From Chloroflexota bacterium (GTDB lineage: Bacteria; Chloroflexota; UBA6077; SHYK01), in contig DASRDP010000006.1 of assembly GCA_035652535.1 (NCBI GenBank), positions 1 through 53,764 of the forward strand: a stretch of DNA of 53,764 nt, given 5' to 3'. This document shows, one piece after another, positions 41,926-50,752 of the stretch; position 1 is the stretch's first letter; every line of letters begins with the position of its first letter. The translations under genes were made by a program, and so were the position numbers. The notes under the pieces are model-generated. The model did no database searches and was not told the origin of the DNA. It was given only the letters and a program-made list of their open reading frames with translations.

Positions 41926-41944
41926 CAACAACCCGCGTCAACGG

Positions 41945-42039
41945 CGGAGGCGTATGGGAGTCGAACCCACCCGCGACACCCTACAGTGCCGCGCAACGGT
42001 TTTGAAGACCGCGAGACCCACCGGGACCCGTCCGCCCCC
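41945..42039 (-). tRNA. selC: Selenocysteine tRNA, tRNA-Sec(TCA)
   Basis: A 95-nt tRNA on the minus strand, the length of E. coli tRNA-Sec. The anticodon stem GCGGT/ACCGT encloses CTTCAAA, giving anticodon UCA that reads UGA. The variable arm is an 8-bp stem CGCGGCAC/GTGTCGCG with a 6-nt loop. The D-arm is long (6 bp, several G-U pairs) with loop CGGT, and the T-arm is GTGGG-TTCGACT-CCCAT. The acceptor pairs 7 bp (GGGGGCG with CGCCTCC, one G-U); the eighth position would be a G-A mismatch. The discriminator is G and CCA is not encoded. The genome therefore probably decodes UGA as Sec, but selA, selB and selD are not here. Confidence 0.93.
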
Positions 42040-44866: not shown

Positions 44867-45670
44867 ATGCTACCAAATATCTCCGCGCTCCTGATCGACC
44901 TCGACGGAGTCGTCTATCGTGGCGAGATGGCGCTCCCGGGGGCGGCGGACGCGCTGGCCACCATCGACGCGCTCGGCATCGCGCGCGTGTTCGTGACAAA
45001 CAACGCCACGCTGACCACCGATGAGTTCTCCGCCAAGCTCACGAGGATGGGGATCGCGGCCAAGCCCAACGACATCGTGACCAGCTCCGAGGCGACAGCG
45101 GCCCACCTGCGCGAGATCGCGCCGTCCGATTCGACGGTCCTGGTCATCGGCGAGGAGGGACTGCGGCAGGCGCTGGCGAGCCGGGGGTTTCCCATCGTGG
45201 ACGCTCAGCCCACGTACGTGGTCGTCGGCCTGGACCGAAATCTGACGTATGCCGATCTCGCCCGAGCGGCGATCGCGCTCCAGCGCGGCGCCCAGTTCAT
45301 CGCGACGAATGCCGACCGCGCGCTCCCCGTCGAAGCGGGATTCTGGCCGGGCGCAGGAGCAATCGTGTCCGCTCTGGTGACGACGACGGGCGTGCAGCCG
45401 ACGATCGTCGGCAAGCCCCAGCCCACCCTGCTCCGCGTCGCCCTGAATCGGATCGGTGCGAGCCCCGAGCGCGCGGCGATGGTGGGTGACCAGATCGAGT
45501 CGGACATTCGCGCCGGCCGCGCAGCGGGCATTCACACCATCTGGGTCGACCCGGGCACGGCCCCGCCGCCCGACGACGTCACCCCCGACCTTCGCGTCGC
45601 CGATCTCTCCGAGCTGGCGGCGCTGCTCCGAGCGCGCACGAATCATCGGGACGCCCCCGACGCGCCATGA
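44867..45670 (+). CDS. HAD-IIA family phosphatase (NagD/4-nitrophenylphosphatase-like)
   Basis: Predicted cytoplasmic phosphatase for a sugar phosphate, nucleotide or similar small molecule. The 267-residue protein has motif I DLDGVVYRG with the nucleophile D11 and acid/base D13, motif II FVTNNAT, a class IIA cap (about 85-180), the lysine in VGKPQP and motif III MVGDQIESDIRAGRAAG. The substrate cannot be fixed. Its TGA overlaps the ATG of the cyclase gene as ATGA, so the two are translationally coupled. Confidence 0.88.
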   Translation: MLPNISALLIDLDGVVYRGEMALPGAADALATIDALGIARVFVTNNATLTTDEFSAKLTRMGIAAKPNDIVTSSEATAAHLREIAPSDSTVLVIGEEGLRQALASRGFPIVDAQPTYVVVGLDRNLTYADLARAAIALQRGAQFIATNADRALPVEAGFWPGAGAIVSALVTTTGVQPTIVGKPQPTLLRVALNRIGASPERAAMVGDQIESDIRAGRAAGIHTIWVDPGTAPPPDDVTPDLRVADLSELAALLRARTNHRDAPDAP

Positions 45671-47826
45671 CCCGACGCGATCGACGGCGCCTCGTCATCA
45701 GCACGTCGGTCTCCGTCGTCGTCGCCGTCGCGCTCACCATCGCCCTCTGGAACGGCGCGTTTGCGACCCTCCAGGCCGCGACGTCCGACGTCTTTTTCCA
45801 GACGTGGCTGCCCACTGGCGTGAAAGACACGTCCCAGCGCGTCGTCGTCGTCGCCATCGACGACCCCACGATCCACGAGCTGGGCCGGCTGGGGGAGTGG
45901 CCCCGTCGGTACTATGCCGACGTCGTCGATCGGCTGCGCGAGGGATTTGCGCGCGAGATCGCCTTCGACATCGGGTTTGTCGAACCTAACGAGGACGATC
46001 AGCTCGTCGCGGACGCGTTGAAGCGTTTCCTGGAGACACCGCCCGAGGATCTCCAGCGCGCCGGCGTGCCGCTCGGCGTACGCAGCGTCATCTCTCCGAT
46101 CGTCGGCATCCCCAACACGGCGCGCACCGTGCACGCGGGCTCGCCCACGACGTTCCCCGACAGCCTGCGGCCGCGCCCCGTTTTCGTCGACGTCAGCACC
46201 GCGCTCGGGCACAGCAACGTCATCCCGGATGGGGACGGCGTCGTACGCAAGACGCCAGCCCTCATCCAGGTCAGCGGCGAGCTTTTTCCGTCGCTGGGGA
46301 TCGCGGCCGCGGCGGCCTACACCAATACGCTGGGACGGGGATATCGAATTGCCACGGACGCTCAGGGCATCTACGCGCTCAATCGCTTCATCCCCACGGA
46401 CCCATTTCTCGACATGGTCGTGAGCTACGCGGGCCCTCCCTCCCACGTGGACGACCCTGCGCATCAGACCTTCAAGGTTGTCTCGTTCGTCGACGTGATG
46501 AATGGGCGCGTTGATCCGGCCGTATTTCGCGACAAGATGGTCTTCATCGGCGTGCTTGACGCCACCGGTCTCGCGGATGACTATCAGGTCCCCACTTCGT
46601 CGCATTTCGGGAAGATGGCCGGGGTCGAGATCCACGCAAATGCGTTCGCGACCGCCACCGCCGCCCGGTTCTTCACGGAACAACAGATCGGTGTCACCAC
46701 GGCCATCGTGTGGGCGATGTGCTTGATGACCGGGCTCGTCGTCTTCCGCTTAAGCATCGTTCTGAGCGCGATCGGAACGCTCGTGTTGGGCCTGGGCTAT
46801 TTCTTCGGCTCGCTCGTCTACGCGGGCATCAGCTATGACCCGCTCGGCGTCGCCATGCCGAACCTCGTCTACCCGCCGGCCGCGCTTCTCCTGACATTCC
46901 TGTCCGTGGCGGTCTATCGCGTGGTCTTCGAGCAGGCGGAGGCGCGCGCCACGCGGGGAGCGATGGGCAAGTATCTTTCTCCGTCGGTCCTGGCCGAGGT
47001 TCTCAGGGACCCGGACCGTCTCCACCTCGGCGGGGAAAAGCGGGTGATGACCGTCCTCTTCACCGACATTCGGGGATTCACGTCGATCTCCGAGCGGCTC
47101 GAACCAGAAGTCCTCGTCCACATTCTGAACGAATACCTGACCGTTATGACGGACGTCGTCCATCGGTGGGAGGGCGTGCTCGACAAGTACATGGGCGACG
47201 CGATTATGGCGTGGTGGGGAGCGCCCACGGAGCAGCCGGACCATGCATACCGCGCGTGCATGACGGCGCTCGAAATGCGGCGGGCGCTCCGCACCCTCCA
47301 TGAGGAATGGGCCGCCCGTGGCGTGCCAAAGATGGAGATGGGCGTTGGGATCAACACCGGTCCGATGGTCTACGGCAACACGGGATCGCTGGAGCGGTTC
47401 GACTTCACTGTGCTCGGCGACGCGGTGAACCTGGCGTCTCGGCTCGAGGGCGCGAACAAAGAGTACGGCTCCAACGTCATCGTGAGCGGATCGACTCGCG
47501 ACCAGGTCGCGGACCGGGGCTTCGTCATGCGTTTCCTGGACCTGATCGAGGTGAAGGGCAAGATGGAGCCGGTCGAGATCTTCGAATTGCTCGGGATTGC
47601 GGACCAGTTGGATGCAAGCGTCCATCTGGTCCTCGGCGCGTGGGACCGTGCCATGGCCCTCTATCGGACGCGGGAGTTTTCCCTGGCCGAGGGCGCGTTT
47701 CGAGACATCCTCGCGCAGCACCCGGACGACGGGCCAGCACAAGTCTACGTGGACCGGTGCGTCCAGCTCCGCGAGAACCCGCCCCACGCTGACTGGGACG
47801 GCGTGTTCGTGATGACGCACAAGTAA
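45667..47826 (+). CDS. CHASE2-domain class III adenylate cyclase
   Basis: Membrane sensor that probably makes cAMP. The 719-residue protein has a first transmembrane helix (about 10-28), an extracytoplasmic CHASE2 domain (about 35-335), three transmembrane helices (about 342-420) and a class III cyclase domain (about 455-620). Metal-binding D467 (LFTDIRGFT) and D511 (MGDAIMAWWG), base-recognising K458 and T591 (FTVLGDAVN), and N598 and R602 are all present, so it should be active, and K/T favours ATP. The last 65 residues resemble a short TPR-like tail. The ligand of CHASE2 is unknown. It is coupled to the upstream HAD gene. Confidence 0.93.
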   Translation: MTRRDRRRLVISTSVSVVVAVALTIALWNGAFATLQAATSDVFFQTWLPTGVKDTSQRVVVVAIDDPTIHELGRLGEWPRRYYADVVDRLREGFAREIAFDIGFVEPNEDDQLVADALKRFLETPPEDLQRAGVPLGVRSVISPIVGIPNTARTVHAGSPTTFPDSLRPRPVFVDVSTALGHSNVIPDGDGVVRKTPALIQVSGELFPSLGIAAAAAYTNTLGRGYRIATDAQGIYALNRFIPTDPFLDMVVSYAGPPSHVDDPAHQTFKVVSFVDVMNGRVDPAVFRDKMVFIGVLDATGLADDYQVPTSSHFGKMAGVEIHANAFATATAARFFTEQQIGVTTAIVWAMCLMTGLVVFRLSIVLSAIGTLVLGLGYFFGSLVYAGISYDPLGVAMPNLVYPPAALLLTFLSVAVYRVVFEQAEARATRGAMGKYLSPSVLAEVLRDPDRLHLGGEKRVMTVLFTDIRGFTSISERLEPEVLVHILNEYLTVMTDVVHRWEGVLDKYMGDAIMAWWGAPTEQPDHAYRACMTALEMRRALRTLHEEWAARGVPKMEMGVGINTGPMVYGNTGSLERFDFTVLGDAVNLASRLEGANKEYGSNVIVSGSTRDQVADRGFVMRFLDLIEVKGKMEPVEIFELLGIADQLDASVHLVLGAWDRAMALYRTREFSLAEGAFRDILAQHPDDGPAQVYVDRCVQLRENPPHADWDGVFVMTHK

Positions 47827-47840
47827 GCCGCGGTGGGCCG

Positions 47841-48731
47841 CTACCGCGGCGGCGGTCGCTGCGGCGGGGGAGGCTGCCCCGGGACCGGCGTGAAGACGCG
47901 AAAGATGGGCGGGTTGGCGGGCAGGTTCCCCGGCCTGGCCGGCGTCGGCAACAAGAAGAACGTCGGCGTCGGCGCCGGGGTGTTGGTGATGGTCGGGGTC
48001 AACGTAATGGTGGGTGTCAGCGTGATGGTCGGCGTTTCGGTGATGGTCGGCGTTGGAGTAATGGTCGGCGTATAGGTCACGAGCGTCCACACGTTCAGCG
48101 GGGCCTTGCGCGCCTCTGCCTCCGCCGCCTGGAGCTGGCGAGCATACCGAACGTTGCGGCCCAGGGGCGCCAGATGTGCGAGACCCTCCTCGAGCAGCAG
48201 CTCGTTGACCATCACGCCGTCGACGTAGACGTAGCGCAGCATCATCCCGCCGGGATTCAGGTCCGTTTCATCGGCCTCCAGCTCCACGGTCTTCCCCTCG
48301 ACGAGCTCCACGTTGCGCTCCGCCGCGTCGCGTCCAAAGGGCTCGACCGGCCGATTGAACATACCGGCGCCCGGCGTGTTCACGCCGATGTACCGCACTG
48401 AGTAGCCGCCCTCGATCAGGATCGTGTTCCCATCCCACACGCGGCGCACCACCGCGTACGTCCGCCCGGGGTGTGGAGTGGGCGTGGGCGAGCTGGTCGG
48501 CGACGCAGGAATGACCGATGGCGTGGGTGTTTGCGTCGGCGGTCGCGCCTGGGCCCGGCGCCGCTCGGCATCTTCCAGGATCTGCGCCGTGATGGGCGGC
48601 CCGTCCAGAAAACACCCGGTCATCCCAACGACGATCGCGACGACAGCGAATATGGCGAGGGTCACCCGAGCGCACCGCAGTCCGCCAGATAACCCGCCGC
48701 GCGGCGATGTGCCTCGGGGCACCGATCGCAT
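47841..48731 (-). CDS. SNase-fold lipoprotein with altered catalytic site
   Basis: Relative of staphylococcal (thermo)nuclease, exported as a lipoprotein. The 296-residue protein has a signal segment ending MTGC (cysteine about 40), a Thr/Pro linker (about 60-88), an SNase fold (about 90-215) and a Thr/Pro repeat tail. The fold is clear (VRRVWDGNTI, VRYIGVNTPG, YVYVDGVMVNELLLEEGLAHL). By alignment to the staphylococcal enzyme Arg35 is kept, but Asp40 is Asn, Glu43 is Gly and Arg87 is Met, so nuclease activity is doubtful. The ATG directly follows the stop of the CPBP gene. A GTG at 48665 is an alternative start. Confidence 0.82.
   Translation of the reverse strand: MRSVPRGTSPRGGLSGGLRCARVTLAIFAVVAIVVGMTGCFLDGPPITAQILEDAERRRAQARPPTQTPTPSVIPASPTSSPTPTPHPGRTYAVVRRVWDGNTILIEGGYSVRYIGVNTPGAGMFNRPVEPFGRDAAERNVELVEGKTVELEADETDLNPGGMMLRYVYVDGVMVNELLLEEGLAHLAPLGRNVRYARQLQAAEAEARKAPLNVWTLVTYTPTITPTPTITETPTITLTPTITLTPTITNTPAPTPTFFLLPTPARPGNLPANPPIFRVFTPVPGQPPPPQRPPPR
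47985..48078 (-). repeat. Tandem repeat encoding a TPTIT-type tail
   Basis: About four imperfect units of roughly 18-24 nt, encoding repeats of the type TPTITxT, lie in the 3' part of the SNase-like gene. They form an extended, probably unstructured Thr/Pro tail of the exported protein. The units are coding and in frame, not a CRISPR array. Confidence 0.7.
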
Positions 48732-49700
48732 CTACTGCTGGGAACCCGCGACGAGCGTCACGAACGCGACGGCATTGTTCAGAATGTGCGCCAGGATCGG
48801 CGCGACGATCGTGCCGCTGCGACGGTAGATGTAGGAGAGAACGAGGGCCGTTCCAAAGATCGCGATAAAGAGGGACGGCAGAGCATGAACCAGCGAAAAG
48901 ATGACGGACGTCGTCAGGTACGCCGTCATGGGCCCCTTGTGAGAAAGATACGCGTTGAAGACGTACCCGCGGAAGAAGAGCTCTTCGACGGTTGGCGCCA
49001 GAATGACGACCGCGAAGACCGCCATGACGTACTGATCGGGCGGCCGCCCCTGCAGCCACCGAAAGCTCTCCTCCTGCGGCTGCGACACGCCGAGGCTCTG
49101 AAGGACCAGCCCGTTGGCCGCGGCCAGCACGAGAATGATCGCCGCGCCGGCCGATCCCACGGCGAGGCCGTTTAGGACCTGCGACCTCGTCAGCCCCAGC
49201 GTCTCCCTCGTCACAAGGCCCGTGCGCACGCCTTGGAGATACACCATGGCGAGGAGCGTCCCGTAAAAGCTCACCGCGGCCACGCCGAAGACGTTCGCCA
49301 TGCTGCTGGAGCCGGCCGGCAGCATGACGAGGTAGCCGACCGCGATGAGGGAGGCGACAACCATAGCGAGCACCGTCGTCGCGATGACAGACTGATGCGA
49401 GCCAATCGGGAGGAGCGGTGCGCCTCCACCCCATCCGAACAAGAAGCCGCCGATGCCCACGCACACGCCTCCCGCCCCAATGATCACGGCGGGAATGGAG
49501 AGCACTGCAAGGTGCGCCTGCAAGCCGAGCGCGGAGGGAATGGCCAGCCGCACCACGGCGAGGGCGACGCCGAGAATGATCAGGGCGCACCCGATCGCCA
49601 ATGCCCCCCGAAGGAACCACACGCCCCGTCGAGATGGCTTCGCGGGGTCGACAGGTGCCAACTCCGGAGCCACCGGGATCTCCTCGGCTGGCAGGCTCAT
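48732..49700 (-). CDS. CPBP family intramembrane metalloprotease
   Basis: Predicted CAAX-protease/bacteriocin-processing family (Abi) glutamate-type intramembrane protease. The 322-residue protein has a soluble lead (1-27) and about eight transmembrane segments. Motif 1 is E239-E240-LFFR244, motif 2 is FSLVHALP with H272 and motif 3 is HILNN (305-309), so all the conserved residues are present. Substrates in bacteria are mostly unknown. Its ATG overlaps the stop of the editing-domain gene (ATGA) and its stop abuts the next start, so it is the centre of a coupled set. Confidence 0.88.
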   Translation of the reverse strand: MSLPAEEIPVAPELAPVDPAKPSRRGVWFLRGALAIGCALIILGVALAVVRLAIPSALGLQAHLAVLSIPAVIIGAGGVCVGIGGFLFGWGGGAPLLPIGSHQSVIATTVLAMVVASLIAVGYLVMLPAGSSSMANVFGVAAVSFYGTLLAMVYLQGVRTGLVTRETLGLTRSQVLNGLAVGSAGAAIILVLAAANGLVLQSLGVSQPQEESFRWLQGRPPDQYVMAVFAVVILAPTVEELFFRGYVFNAYLSHKGPMTAYLTTSVIFSLVHALPSLFIAIFGTALVLSYIYRRSGTIVAPILAHILNNAVAFVTLVAGSQQ

Positions 49701-50200
49701 GGCAGACGCCCCGGCGACGGCGCCGAGGCCGCGTCGTTCCGCTCGGCCGCGGGATCGGGCGGTGAGCCGCCTGGCTCATGGGCGCGAACCGAGCGCGCCA
49801 CGCGGGAGAGCGGGTGGCCCTTGGCGCGGAGGTCCCAGGAGTGAAACCACCCAAACGGCGGACGCTCCACATGGAGCCCGCGGCGCCGCAGTTCCCGGGC
49901 CACGGAATCGATCATCGCCAGCGCGGCGTCGGGAGCGCATGGCTCGGCAAAGAGATGCGCAAAGGGGAGCAGCAGGACCTCGGTGGCCTTGAGCTGGCTG
50001 GCCAGTCGGTGGACCTCATTCGCGGTTTGTCGTGCCACCGCCTCGGGGTCCGCTTCATCGGCCGATTCGGCGCTTGCCAGGACGAGCAGCCCTTCGTCGA
50101 TGTGACAGCTCGGGGAGGTCGGCGTCTCCGCTACCGGCGACCTGCCGCGCTCGGTGACCGTACAGGTAAACGAATCCACGTGGAACATGAGCAGGCGCAC
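49697..50200 (-). CDS. Free-standing archaeal-type threonyl-tRNA synthetase editing domain
   Basis: Resembles the N-terminal editing domain of archaeal ThrRS (DTD-like fold), which removes serine from Ser-tRNA-Thr. The 167-residue protein lacks any synthetase core. Conserved parts are the opening MRLLMFHVDSF, SAESADEADPEAV, LLLPFAHLF with H82, and PPFGWFHSWDLRAKGHPLSRVAR with K127; H82 and K127 match His83 and Lys121 of the Pyrococcus domain. The last 30 residues are low-complexity. The start is GTG. It follows nrdR by 15 nt and overlaps the CPBP gene. Function as a trans-editing factor is inferred by homology only. Confidence 0.82.
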   Translation of the reverse strand: MRLLMFHVDSFTCTVTERGRSPVAETPTSPSCHIDEGLLVLASAESADEADPEAVARQTANEVHRLASQLKATEVLLLPFAHLFAEPCAPDAALAMIDSVARELRRRGLHVERPPFGWFHSWDLRAKGHPLSRVARSVRAHEPGGSPPDPAAERNDAASAPSPGRLP

Positions 50201-50215
50201 GAATCGCGTCCCAGG

Positions 50216-50752
50216 TCAGCCGACGGGTTCGCGTCGTCGGCCGTTTCGCCCGTCCCGACGAGTCGGGGTGCCCCGATCCATCGGGACGGGGTCCGATCCC
50301 GACGTGCTCTTGGCGCGCTGGATCTCCTCTTCGAAAGACGAGAGATCGGCGAACGCTCGGTAGACCGATGCGAACCGAATATAGGCAACATTGTCCAGCT
50401 CGCGAAGCTTGTTCATCACCAGCTCGCCCACGACGGCATGGCTGACTTCGTGGCCCTCACGCTGGCGCAACGCCGCCTCGATATCGTTCACGAGCTGCTC
50501 GATCGCGTCGGCGCTGACCGGCCGCTTGGCGCAGGCCTTGGTGATTCCGGCCCGAAGCTTCGCGCGGCTGAACTCCTCCCGCCGCCCGTCCTTCTTCACG
50601 AGAATCAGGCCCGCGACCTCCGCGCGCTCGTAGGTCGTGAAGCGCGCGCCGCAGGTAGCGCAGCGACGGCGCCTTCGGGTAACCGTGAGGTCTTCGGAGT
50701 CGCGCTTATCGAGCACTTTCGTCGTCGGCGCGGAACAATACGGACACTTCAT
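50216..50752 (-). CDS. nrdR: Transcriptional repressor NrdR
   Basis: ATP/dATP-sensing repressor of ribonucleotide reductase genes. The 178-residue protein has the zinc ribbon (C3, C6, C31, C34) with the basic RRRRRC segment and an ATP-cone domain (about 48-138, VKKDGRREEFSRAKLRAGITKAC). The tail after 150 is basic and longer than usual. A GGAG stands seven bases before the ATG and a sigma-70-like promoter just upstream. No nrd genes lie in the window, so its targets are elsewhere. Confidence 0.96.
   Translation of the reverse strand: MKCPYCSAPTTKVLDKRDSEDLTVTRRRRRCATCGARFTTYERAEVAGLILVKKDGRREEFSRAKLRAGITKACAKRPVSADAIEQLVNDIEAALRQREGHEVSHAVVGELVMNKLRELDNVAYIRFASVYRAFADLSSFEEEIQRAKSTSGSDPVPMDRGTPTRRDGRNGRRREPVG
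50249..50290. repeat. Nested inverted repeat in the 3' end of nrdR
   Basis: Outer arms CCCGTCCCGA (50249-50258) and TCGGGACGGG (50281-50290) are perfect complements, and an inner hairpin TCGGGG/CCCCGA (50263-50268 with 50271-50276) lies between them. The element is inside the coding region for the poorly conserved nrdR tail and might be a REP-like or mRNA-stabilising structure. Confidence 0.5.

Follow-up and report, generated by a model that had tools for sequence, protein, structure and literature searches.

A stand-alone archaeal-type ThrRS editing domain in a Chloroflexota bacterium: member of a separate clade with altered pocket residues

Introduction

The DTD-like editing domain (ED) of ThrRS has been described as archaeal, and in Pyrococcus its residue Glu134 contacts the amino group of the substrate. 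To our knowledge, proofreading by bacterial ThrRS is thought to depend on the N2 domain alone. Catalysis in three archaeal EDs depends on the 2′-OH of the tRNA (PMC4491819). The K121M change severely lowers the activity of these EDs on Ser-tRNAThr; two mutant structures were solved, and there the effect is put down to a displaced catalytic water. Tyr120Ala and Glu134Ala, in contrast, hardly alter activity and specificity, the latter being set by a main-chain contact at position 121 (PMC4491819). Archaeal EDs are also thought to depend on U73 of the tRNA (review PMC11295145). The fold family and editing in trans are thus already known, as are archaeal stand-alone tRNA-Thr-EDs encoded near SepCysS and sulfur genes and bacterial SepRS-ED fusions (Mukai et al. 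2017, 2022; PMC5424206, PMC8762117); the SepRS-fused EDs keep the serine motif (PMC5424206, PMC8762117). In this work we analyzed a free-standing ED gene in a bacterium of the phylum Chloroflexota.

Results

Identity and fold of the editing domain

The window, that is, the whole stretch of DNA analyzed, comprises 53,764 nucleotides (contig DASRDP010000006.1). The ED gene and its neighbors are the following:

47841..48731, minus strand: SNase-like protein whose N-terminus looks like that of a lipoprotein; directly adjacent to the protease gene
48732..49700, minus strand: Rce1-like/CPBP (CAAX-type) intramembrane protease; 4-nt overlap with the ED stop (ATGA)
49697..50200, minus strand: stand-alone ThrRS-editing-domain-like protein (PF08915), 167 aa, GTG start (open reading frame, Pfam, PDB and model)
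50216..50752, minus strand: nrdR, encoding the repressor that controls transcription of ribonucleotide reductase genes; ends 15 nt upstream of the ED start
Residues 1-141 of the ED protein: ED fold, followed by a low-confidence 25-residue tail (predicted model)

The only Pfam match of the window protein was PF08915 (tRNA-Thr_ED; E 1.1e-31, 110.2 bits against a cut-off of 30.2), with the profile covered over its full length (1-137/137), and no other PF08915 match was found in the genome (a 4.45 Mb bin, 98% complete). The Pfam search gave no match to PF02580 (DTD), and an anticodon-binding domain was absent from the 167 residues, which hold PF08915 alone. Archaeal ThrRS editing domains were the best sequence matches in the PDB (E 1.5e-22). 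The NCBIfam models NF003068 (archaeal ThrRS, N-terminal part) and NF011500 (Ser-tRNA(Thr) hydrolase) also matched, with scores far under their cut-offs, since this protein contains no domain but the ED. A tblastn search for carriage of the ED on plasmids or phages gave no match.

An AlphaFold2 model built from stand-alone relatives (mean pLDDT 91) was compared with known structures. Archaeal EDs gave Z scores of 22.6-25.7 and rmsd values of about 1.0-1.3 for most entries; the Pyrococcus ED was matched with Z 25.7 and rmsd 1.0, as against Z ~16-17 (16.8) for DTD, and Foldseek agreed in placing the model nearer to archaeal ThrRS EDs than to DTD. The sequence-only reading had claimed that a bacterium encodes an archaeal-type (DTD-like) ThrRS editing domain as a stand-alone protein, and this claim survived: the full-length PF08915 match and the Z scores (~25 against ~17 for DTD) agree with it, and neither profile nor structure comparison placed the protein in another DTD-like family.

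Pocket residues of stand-alone and fused domains

Window residues were mapped by alignment onto the Pyrococcus abyssi ED, whose numbering is used here, and compared in 50 ThrRS-fused and 40 stand-alone EDs, two divergent sequences (L014 and L026, see below) being left out of the 40. The codons concerned are the following:

49802..49804, minus strand: Arg133, equivalent to Pyrococcus Glu134 (alignment)
49841..49846, minus strand: Phe119-His120, equivalent to Pyrococcus Tyr120-Lys121; neither Tyr nor Lys kept
49955..49957, minus strand: His82, equivalent to Pyrococcus His83; His in 90/90 sequences compared

The comparison revealed a split between both sets that has no exception at positions 120, 121 and 134. 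Position 120 is Tyr in 50/50 fused and Phe in 40/40 stand-alone EDs, and position 134 is Glu in 50/50 and Arg in 40/40, respectively. Lys121 is present in 50/50 fused and 0/40 stand-alone domains (Asn 30, His 4, Ser 4, Thr 1, Phe 1), so that none of the serine-pocket trio Tyr120/Lys121/Glu134 is retained by any of the 40. In addition, Cys127 and Ser85, each found in 48/50 fused EDs, are replaced in 40/40 stand-alone ones by Ala and Phe, respectively. His83 is present in fused and stand-alone EDs alike. The loss of Lys121 is important, since K121M leaves archaeal EDs severely impaired in Ser-tRNAThr activity, whereas Y120A and E134A are tolerated. Both His83 and Lys121 had earlier been read as kept in the window protein; the histidine is there (His82), while the residue aligned with Lys121 is His120. 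The Lys of the KGHP motif, which corresponds to Pyrococcus Lys128, may have been mistaken for it. Among 38 stand-alone EDs, 22 columns are invariant, including His83 and the KGHP motif, a degree of conservation which indicates that function has been maintained in the stand-alone clade.

Distribution and phylogeny of the stand-alone clade

A profile search detected PF08915 in 22 of 400 Chloroflexota genomes. Every complete match stops at its own stop codon soon after the domain, one other being truncated at the edge of its contig, and the Chloroflexota EDs are therefore single-domain proteins. Scanning contigs of one genome per species yielded 80 loci, a partial census since a single motif was used and bin names may be wrong; stand-alone EDs were found in bins named Nitrospinota, Tectomicrobia, Bacillota and Actinomycetota and, among archaea, Lokiarchaeota, other Asgard groups, Bathyarchaeota and Aenigmatarchaeota. 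A tree built from 92 domains placed the stand-alone and the fused EDs on either side of one branch with support 100/99. On sequence grounds, the window ED is a member of a separate stand-alone clade scattered over bacteria and archaea, and not a loose archaeal ThrRS domain. Nor is it an oddity private to one bacterium, as the clade spans several bacterial phyla and some archaea.

A third type of stand-alone PF08915 protein was found in two other Chloroflexota families (L014:1501-1923 and L026:1501-1911, both on the plus strand); these EDs are without the KGHP motif and Lys121 and sit on a very long branch, yet they match the Pfam profile strongly. The tree does not include yet another kind of archaeal stand-alone ED, few in number and retaining Lys121.

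Gene neighborhood

The identities first proposed for the neighboring genes (nrdR, a membrane protease and an SNase-like lipoprotein) were borne out, the protease being of Rce1-like/CAAX type. A gene for a protein with CHASE2 and adenylate/guanylate cyclase catalytic domains adjoins the cluster (window 45667-47826, plus strand). The order nrdR-ED-CAAX-protease was kept in five genomes/loci from three families of the window's order, and the SNase gene stays in the cluster within the family. No partner genes conserved across phyla were found, the nrdR-CAAX arrangement being limited to the order.

Other members have different neighbors. In three Anaerolineae the ED gene lies near genes for thioredoxins, a CsoR-like repressor, a CoA-binding protein and OsmC, and in a Bacillota bin it stands beside DsrE/DsrH and sulfide-dehydrogenase-like flavoprotein genes. 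In one Aenigmatarchaeota genome (L036), the gene for a window-type ED overlaps cysS by 4 nt and is next to iscS and nifU. In three other genomes of the same phylum (loci L248, L249 and L250), a stand-alone ED is likewise encoded next to related iscS, nifU and HTH genes, the four loci forming a conserved DPANN cluster; the EDs of L248 and L250, the two examined over their full length, keep Lys121, and therefore two ED types share one syntenic slot. No further window-type stand-alone ED was present among the listed matches of Aenigmatarchaeota, and a general link to cysS was rejected, as it was seen in L036 only. Altogether, these neighborhoods are suggestive of a loose tie between stand-alone EDs and thiol/sulfur genes.

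Host ThrRS, DTD, SepCysS and tRNAs

The single ThrRS of the window genome (L004, G000:C97) contains a tRNA_SAD (N2) domain with HSAAH and CRGPH motifs, as expected from the earlier remark that bacterial ThrRS normally edits with this other type of domain. A TGS (N1) domain was not detected in this ThrRS, in which at most ~67 residues precede the N2 histidine motif. The N2 motifs HSxxH and CxGPH were intact in 20/20 ThrRS recovered from the 22 ED-positive Chloroflexota. The suspected loss of N2 was thus found neither here nor in these genomes, which rules out the ED as a make-up for lost ThrRS editing; action in trans stands as the natural reading of a free ED, but not as compensation for a missing N2. 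DTD was found in 20/22 ED-positive Chloroflexota (8/8 among good-quality genomes), and the window genome encodes a full-length DTD at a separate site (C147), so that the ED as a DTD replacement was also ruled out.

Stand-alone EDs and ED-fused ThrRS frames co-occur in four archaeal genomes (an Aenigmatarchaeota bin, a Bathyarchaeota bin and two Asgard bins whose long frames have the size of a ThrRS) and in one bacterial bin, G404; in a second Bathyarchaeota bin (G410), an additional ED frame runs into masked sequence. The G404 bin (L039, bacterium Dive96_bin1.91) holds two PF08915 frames of 638-650 aa, the size of archaeal-type ThrRS, together with a stand-alone ED and SepCysS, and has either unusual gene content or a mixed origin. 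SepCysS scored above the cut-off in 0/20 Chloroflexota genomes searched, the best value in the window genome being 27.9 bits against a cut-off of 365, and a SepCysS link in the Chloroflexota tested was dropped.

Inspection of the tRNA genes of the window genome revealed U73 on tRNA-Thr (three genes), tRNA-Cys and tRNA-Gly (three genes), and A73 on tRNA-Ala, -Pro and -Met. U73 was found on tRNA-Thr(GGU) in 15/15 ED-positive genomes where it was readable, and on all well-formed tRNA-Thr(GGU) among the matches listed across Chloroflexota. Since it is general among these matches, U73 permits the ED gene and does not predict it, and it was ruled out as a marker tracking the gene. ARAGORN also called a tRNA-SeC at window 41943-42039 (minus strand, with anticodon tca and G as the discriminator), a hint that this bacterium uses selenocysteine.

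Discussion

We consider, with a probability of roughly 0.55, that the window ED, from a distinct stand-alone clade, is a homodimeric aminoacyl-tRNA deacylase that acts in trans, with a changed or broadened substrate set. We infer the dimer, the activity and the substrate; that the protein is a deacylase of some kind is the safer statement, and we hold it to be likely. The ED probably removes a mistake left by the ordinary proofreading of the cell. In the proposed mechanism, the terminal A76 of the charged tRNA would occupy the conserved adenosine pocket, and the 2′-OH of the tRNA would activate the attacking water, as in three archaeal relatives (PMC4491819), so that few protein side chains would be needed for the chemistry. 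The side chains of the amino-acid pocket are swapped clade-wide (Tyr120 to Phe, Lys121 to Asn/His, Glu134 to Arg, Ser85 to Phe and Cys127 to Ala), and the substrate set would therefore probably be changed or broadened relative to Ser-tRNAThr; this follows from the residues near the scissile bond whose side chains might take part in the chemistry (His83, Tyr120, Lys121 and Glu134), of which only His83 is unchanged in the whole clade. Candidate tRNAs would be those with U73, namely tRNA-Thr, -Cys and -Gly in the window genome, and the ED would act beside ThrRS N2 editing and DTD, replacing neither.

A possible but clearly less probable explanation is backup editing of Ser-tRNAThr in trans when the N2 site of ThrRS is disabled, for instance by oxidation of its catalytic cysteine. 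H2O2 is known to oxidise Cys182 of N2, giving Ser mistranslation (PMC4041444), the stand-alone site (Ala at position 127 in 40/40) needs no cysteine, and thioredoxin and OsmC genes lie near the ED in Anaerolineae. The shared ED fold, the conserved His83 and the presence on all tRNA-Thr of U73, thought to be required by archaeal EDs (PMC11295145), are also consistent with this function. Furthermore, archaeal ED specificity outlasts the loss of Tyr120 and Glu134, whose Ala mutations are nearly neutral (PMC4491819); side-chain swaps therefore need not change the substrate, and the specificity-setting main-chain contact at 121 could be kept in the window ED. On the other hand, Lys121 is missing in 40/40, and K121M severely cuts Ser-tRNAThr activity in archaeal EDs (PMC4491819); the stand-alone ED is kept also by archaea that lack N2 but encode a complete fused ED; and U73, being general in the phylum, does not track the gene. 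Backup editing stays a serious rival because main-chain contacts set archaeal ED specificity and the N2 cysteine is prone to oxidation, although a changed or broadened substrate is favored over pure backup.

Slightly more tentative is the proposal that the stand-alone clade represents a separate, ancient quality-control enzyme that is scattered over bacteria and archaea and acts on a new substrate. Within this proposal, the replacement of Glu134 by Arg suggests a preference for negatively charged amino acids or amino acids without a free amino group, and not for serine; a U73 tRNA carrying an amino acid that is damaged or related to sulfur, again not serine, is suggested as an alternative target.

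It is rather unlikely that the target is a mischarged tRNA-Cys such as Ser-tRNACys, along the lines proposed by Mukai et al. for archaeal stand-alone and SepRS-fused EDs. The published SepCysS and SepRS links (PMC5424206, PMC8762117), the same-clade ED at cysS, iscS and nifU in L036, the HTH-iscS-nifU cluster with a stand-alone ED in three related genomes, the DsrE/DsrH genes of the Bacillota bin and the U73 on tRNA-Cys of the window genome point in this direction. Against it, SepCysS is below the cut-off in the 20 Chloroflexota searched, cys genes never adjoin the ED in this phylum, and the cysS link was seen once, in a phylum with no other window-type ED among its listed matches.

Chiral or glycine proofreading in the manner of DTD, on D-aa-tRNAs or Gly-tRNA, is very unlikely. 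The fold resembles that of DTD (Z ~17), and archaeal EDs cleave Gly-tRNAGly even faster than Ser-tRNAThr (PMC4491819), but a full-length DTD is present in the window genome and nearly all ED-positive genomes, the window protein lacks a PF02580 match, and hydrolysis of Gly-tRNAGly, which bears U73, would be harmful unless EF-Tu protected it. Least probable of all is a non-editing role, such as regulation or binding in connection with nrdR by a protein that reuses the ED fold: the order nrdR-ED-CAAX-protease in five genomes of three families and the replaced pocket residues would fit, but nrdR is no neighbor outside the order and many positions, including His83 and the KGHP motif, are invariant.

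Where bacteria already possess N2 and DTD, the presence of a free ED in addition implies one of two things: a backup for a site prone to oxidation, or a mischarged tRNA of a new type. The residue split (Tyr/Lys/Glu versus Phe/Asn-His/Arg) offers a natural test of whether substrate choice is made by RNA and main chain rather than by side chains. In the open-licence literature, to which our search extended (subscription journals being outside its scope), we found neither a paper naming PF08915 or describing Chloroflexota stand-alone EDs nor a clade-wide stand-alone type without Lys121, Tyr120 and Glu134 in bacteria bearing N2 and DTD. The stand-alone clade is apparently unstudied, and its amino-acid pocket is rebuilt.

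Comparison with known systems

DTD (PF02580) has in common with the window protein the superfold and a presumed RNA-assisted chemistry; it differs in its lower structural match (Z ~17), in the missing PF02580 match and in being separately encoded. The Mukai-type stand-alone EDs are single-domain proteins like the window protein, and in one Aenigmatarchaeota genome a window-type ED occupies their HTH-iscS-nifU slot; Lys121 is kept in two EDs of this slot (L248 and L250) and lost in the window protein. The crenarchaeal ThrRS-ed (S. solfataricus, A. pernix ThrRS-2) acts in trans with the same ED fold, and its model NF011500 matches the window protein over the ED with 66 bits. Unlike the window protein, it has an anticodon-binding domain and keeps Tyr115/Lys116/Glu129, and it serves a host whose other ThrRS is without editing, whereas the window host ThrRS retains N2. 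Finally, the archaeal ThrRS EDs (P. abyssi 1Y2Q/2HL1, M. jannaschii 4RRF) resemble the window protein in fold (Z ~25, rmsd 1.0) and length, and share with it His83, the FG motif at 117-118, the KGHP motif and ~31% identity. In contrast to them, the window protein is free-standing, has Tyr120, Lys121, Glu134, Ser85 and Cys127 replaced, and falls in a different clade, in a host whose ThrRS is bacterial and bears N2.
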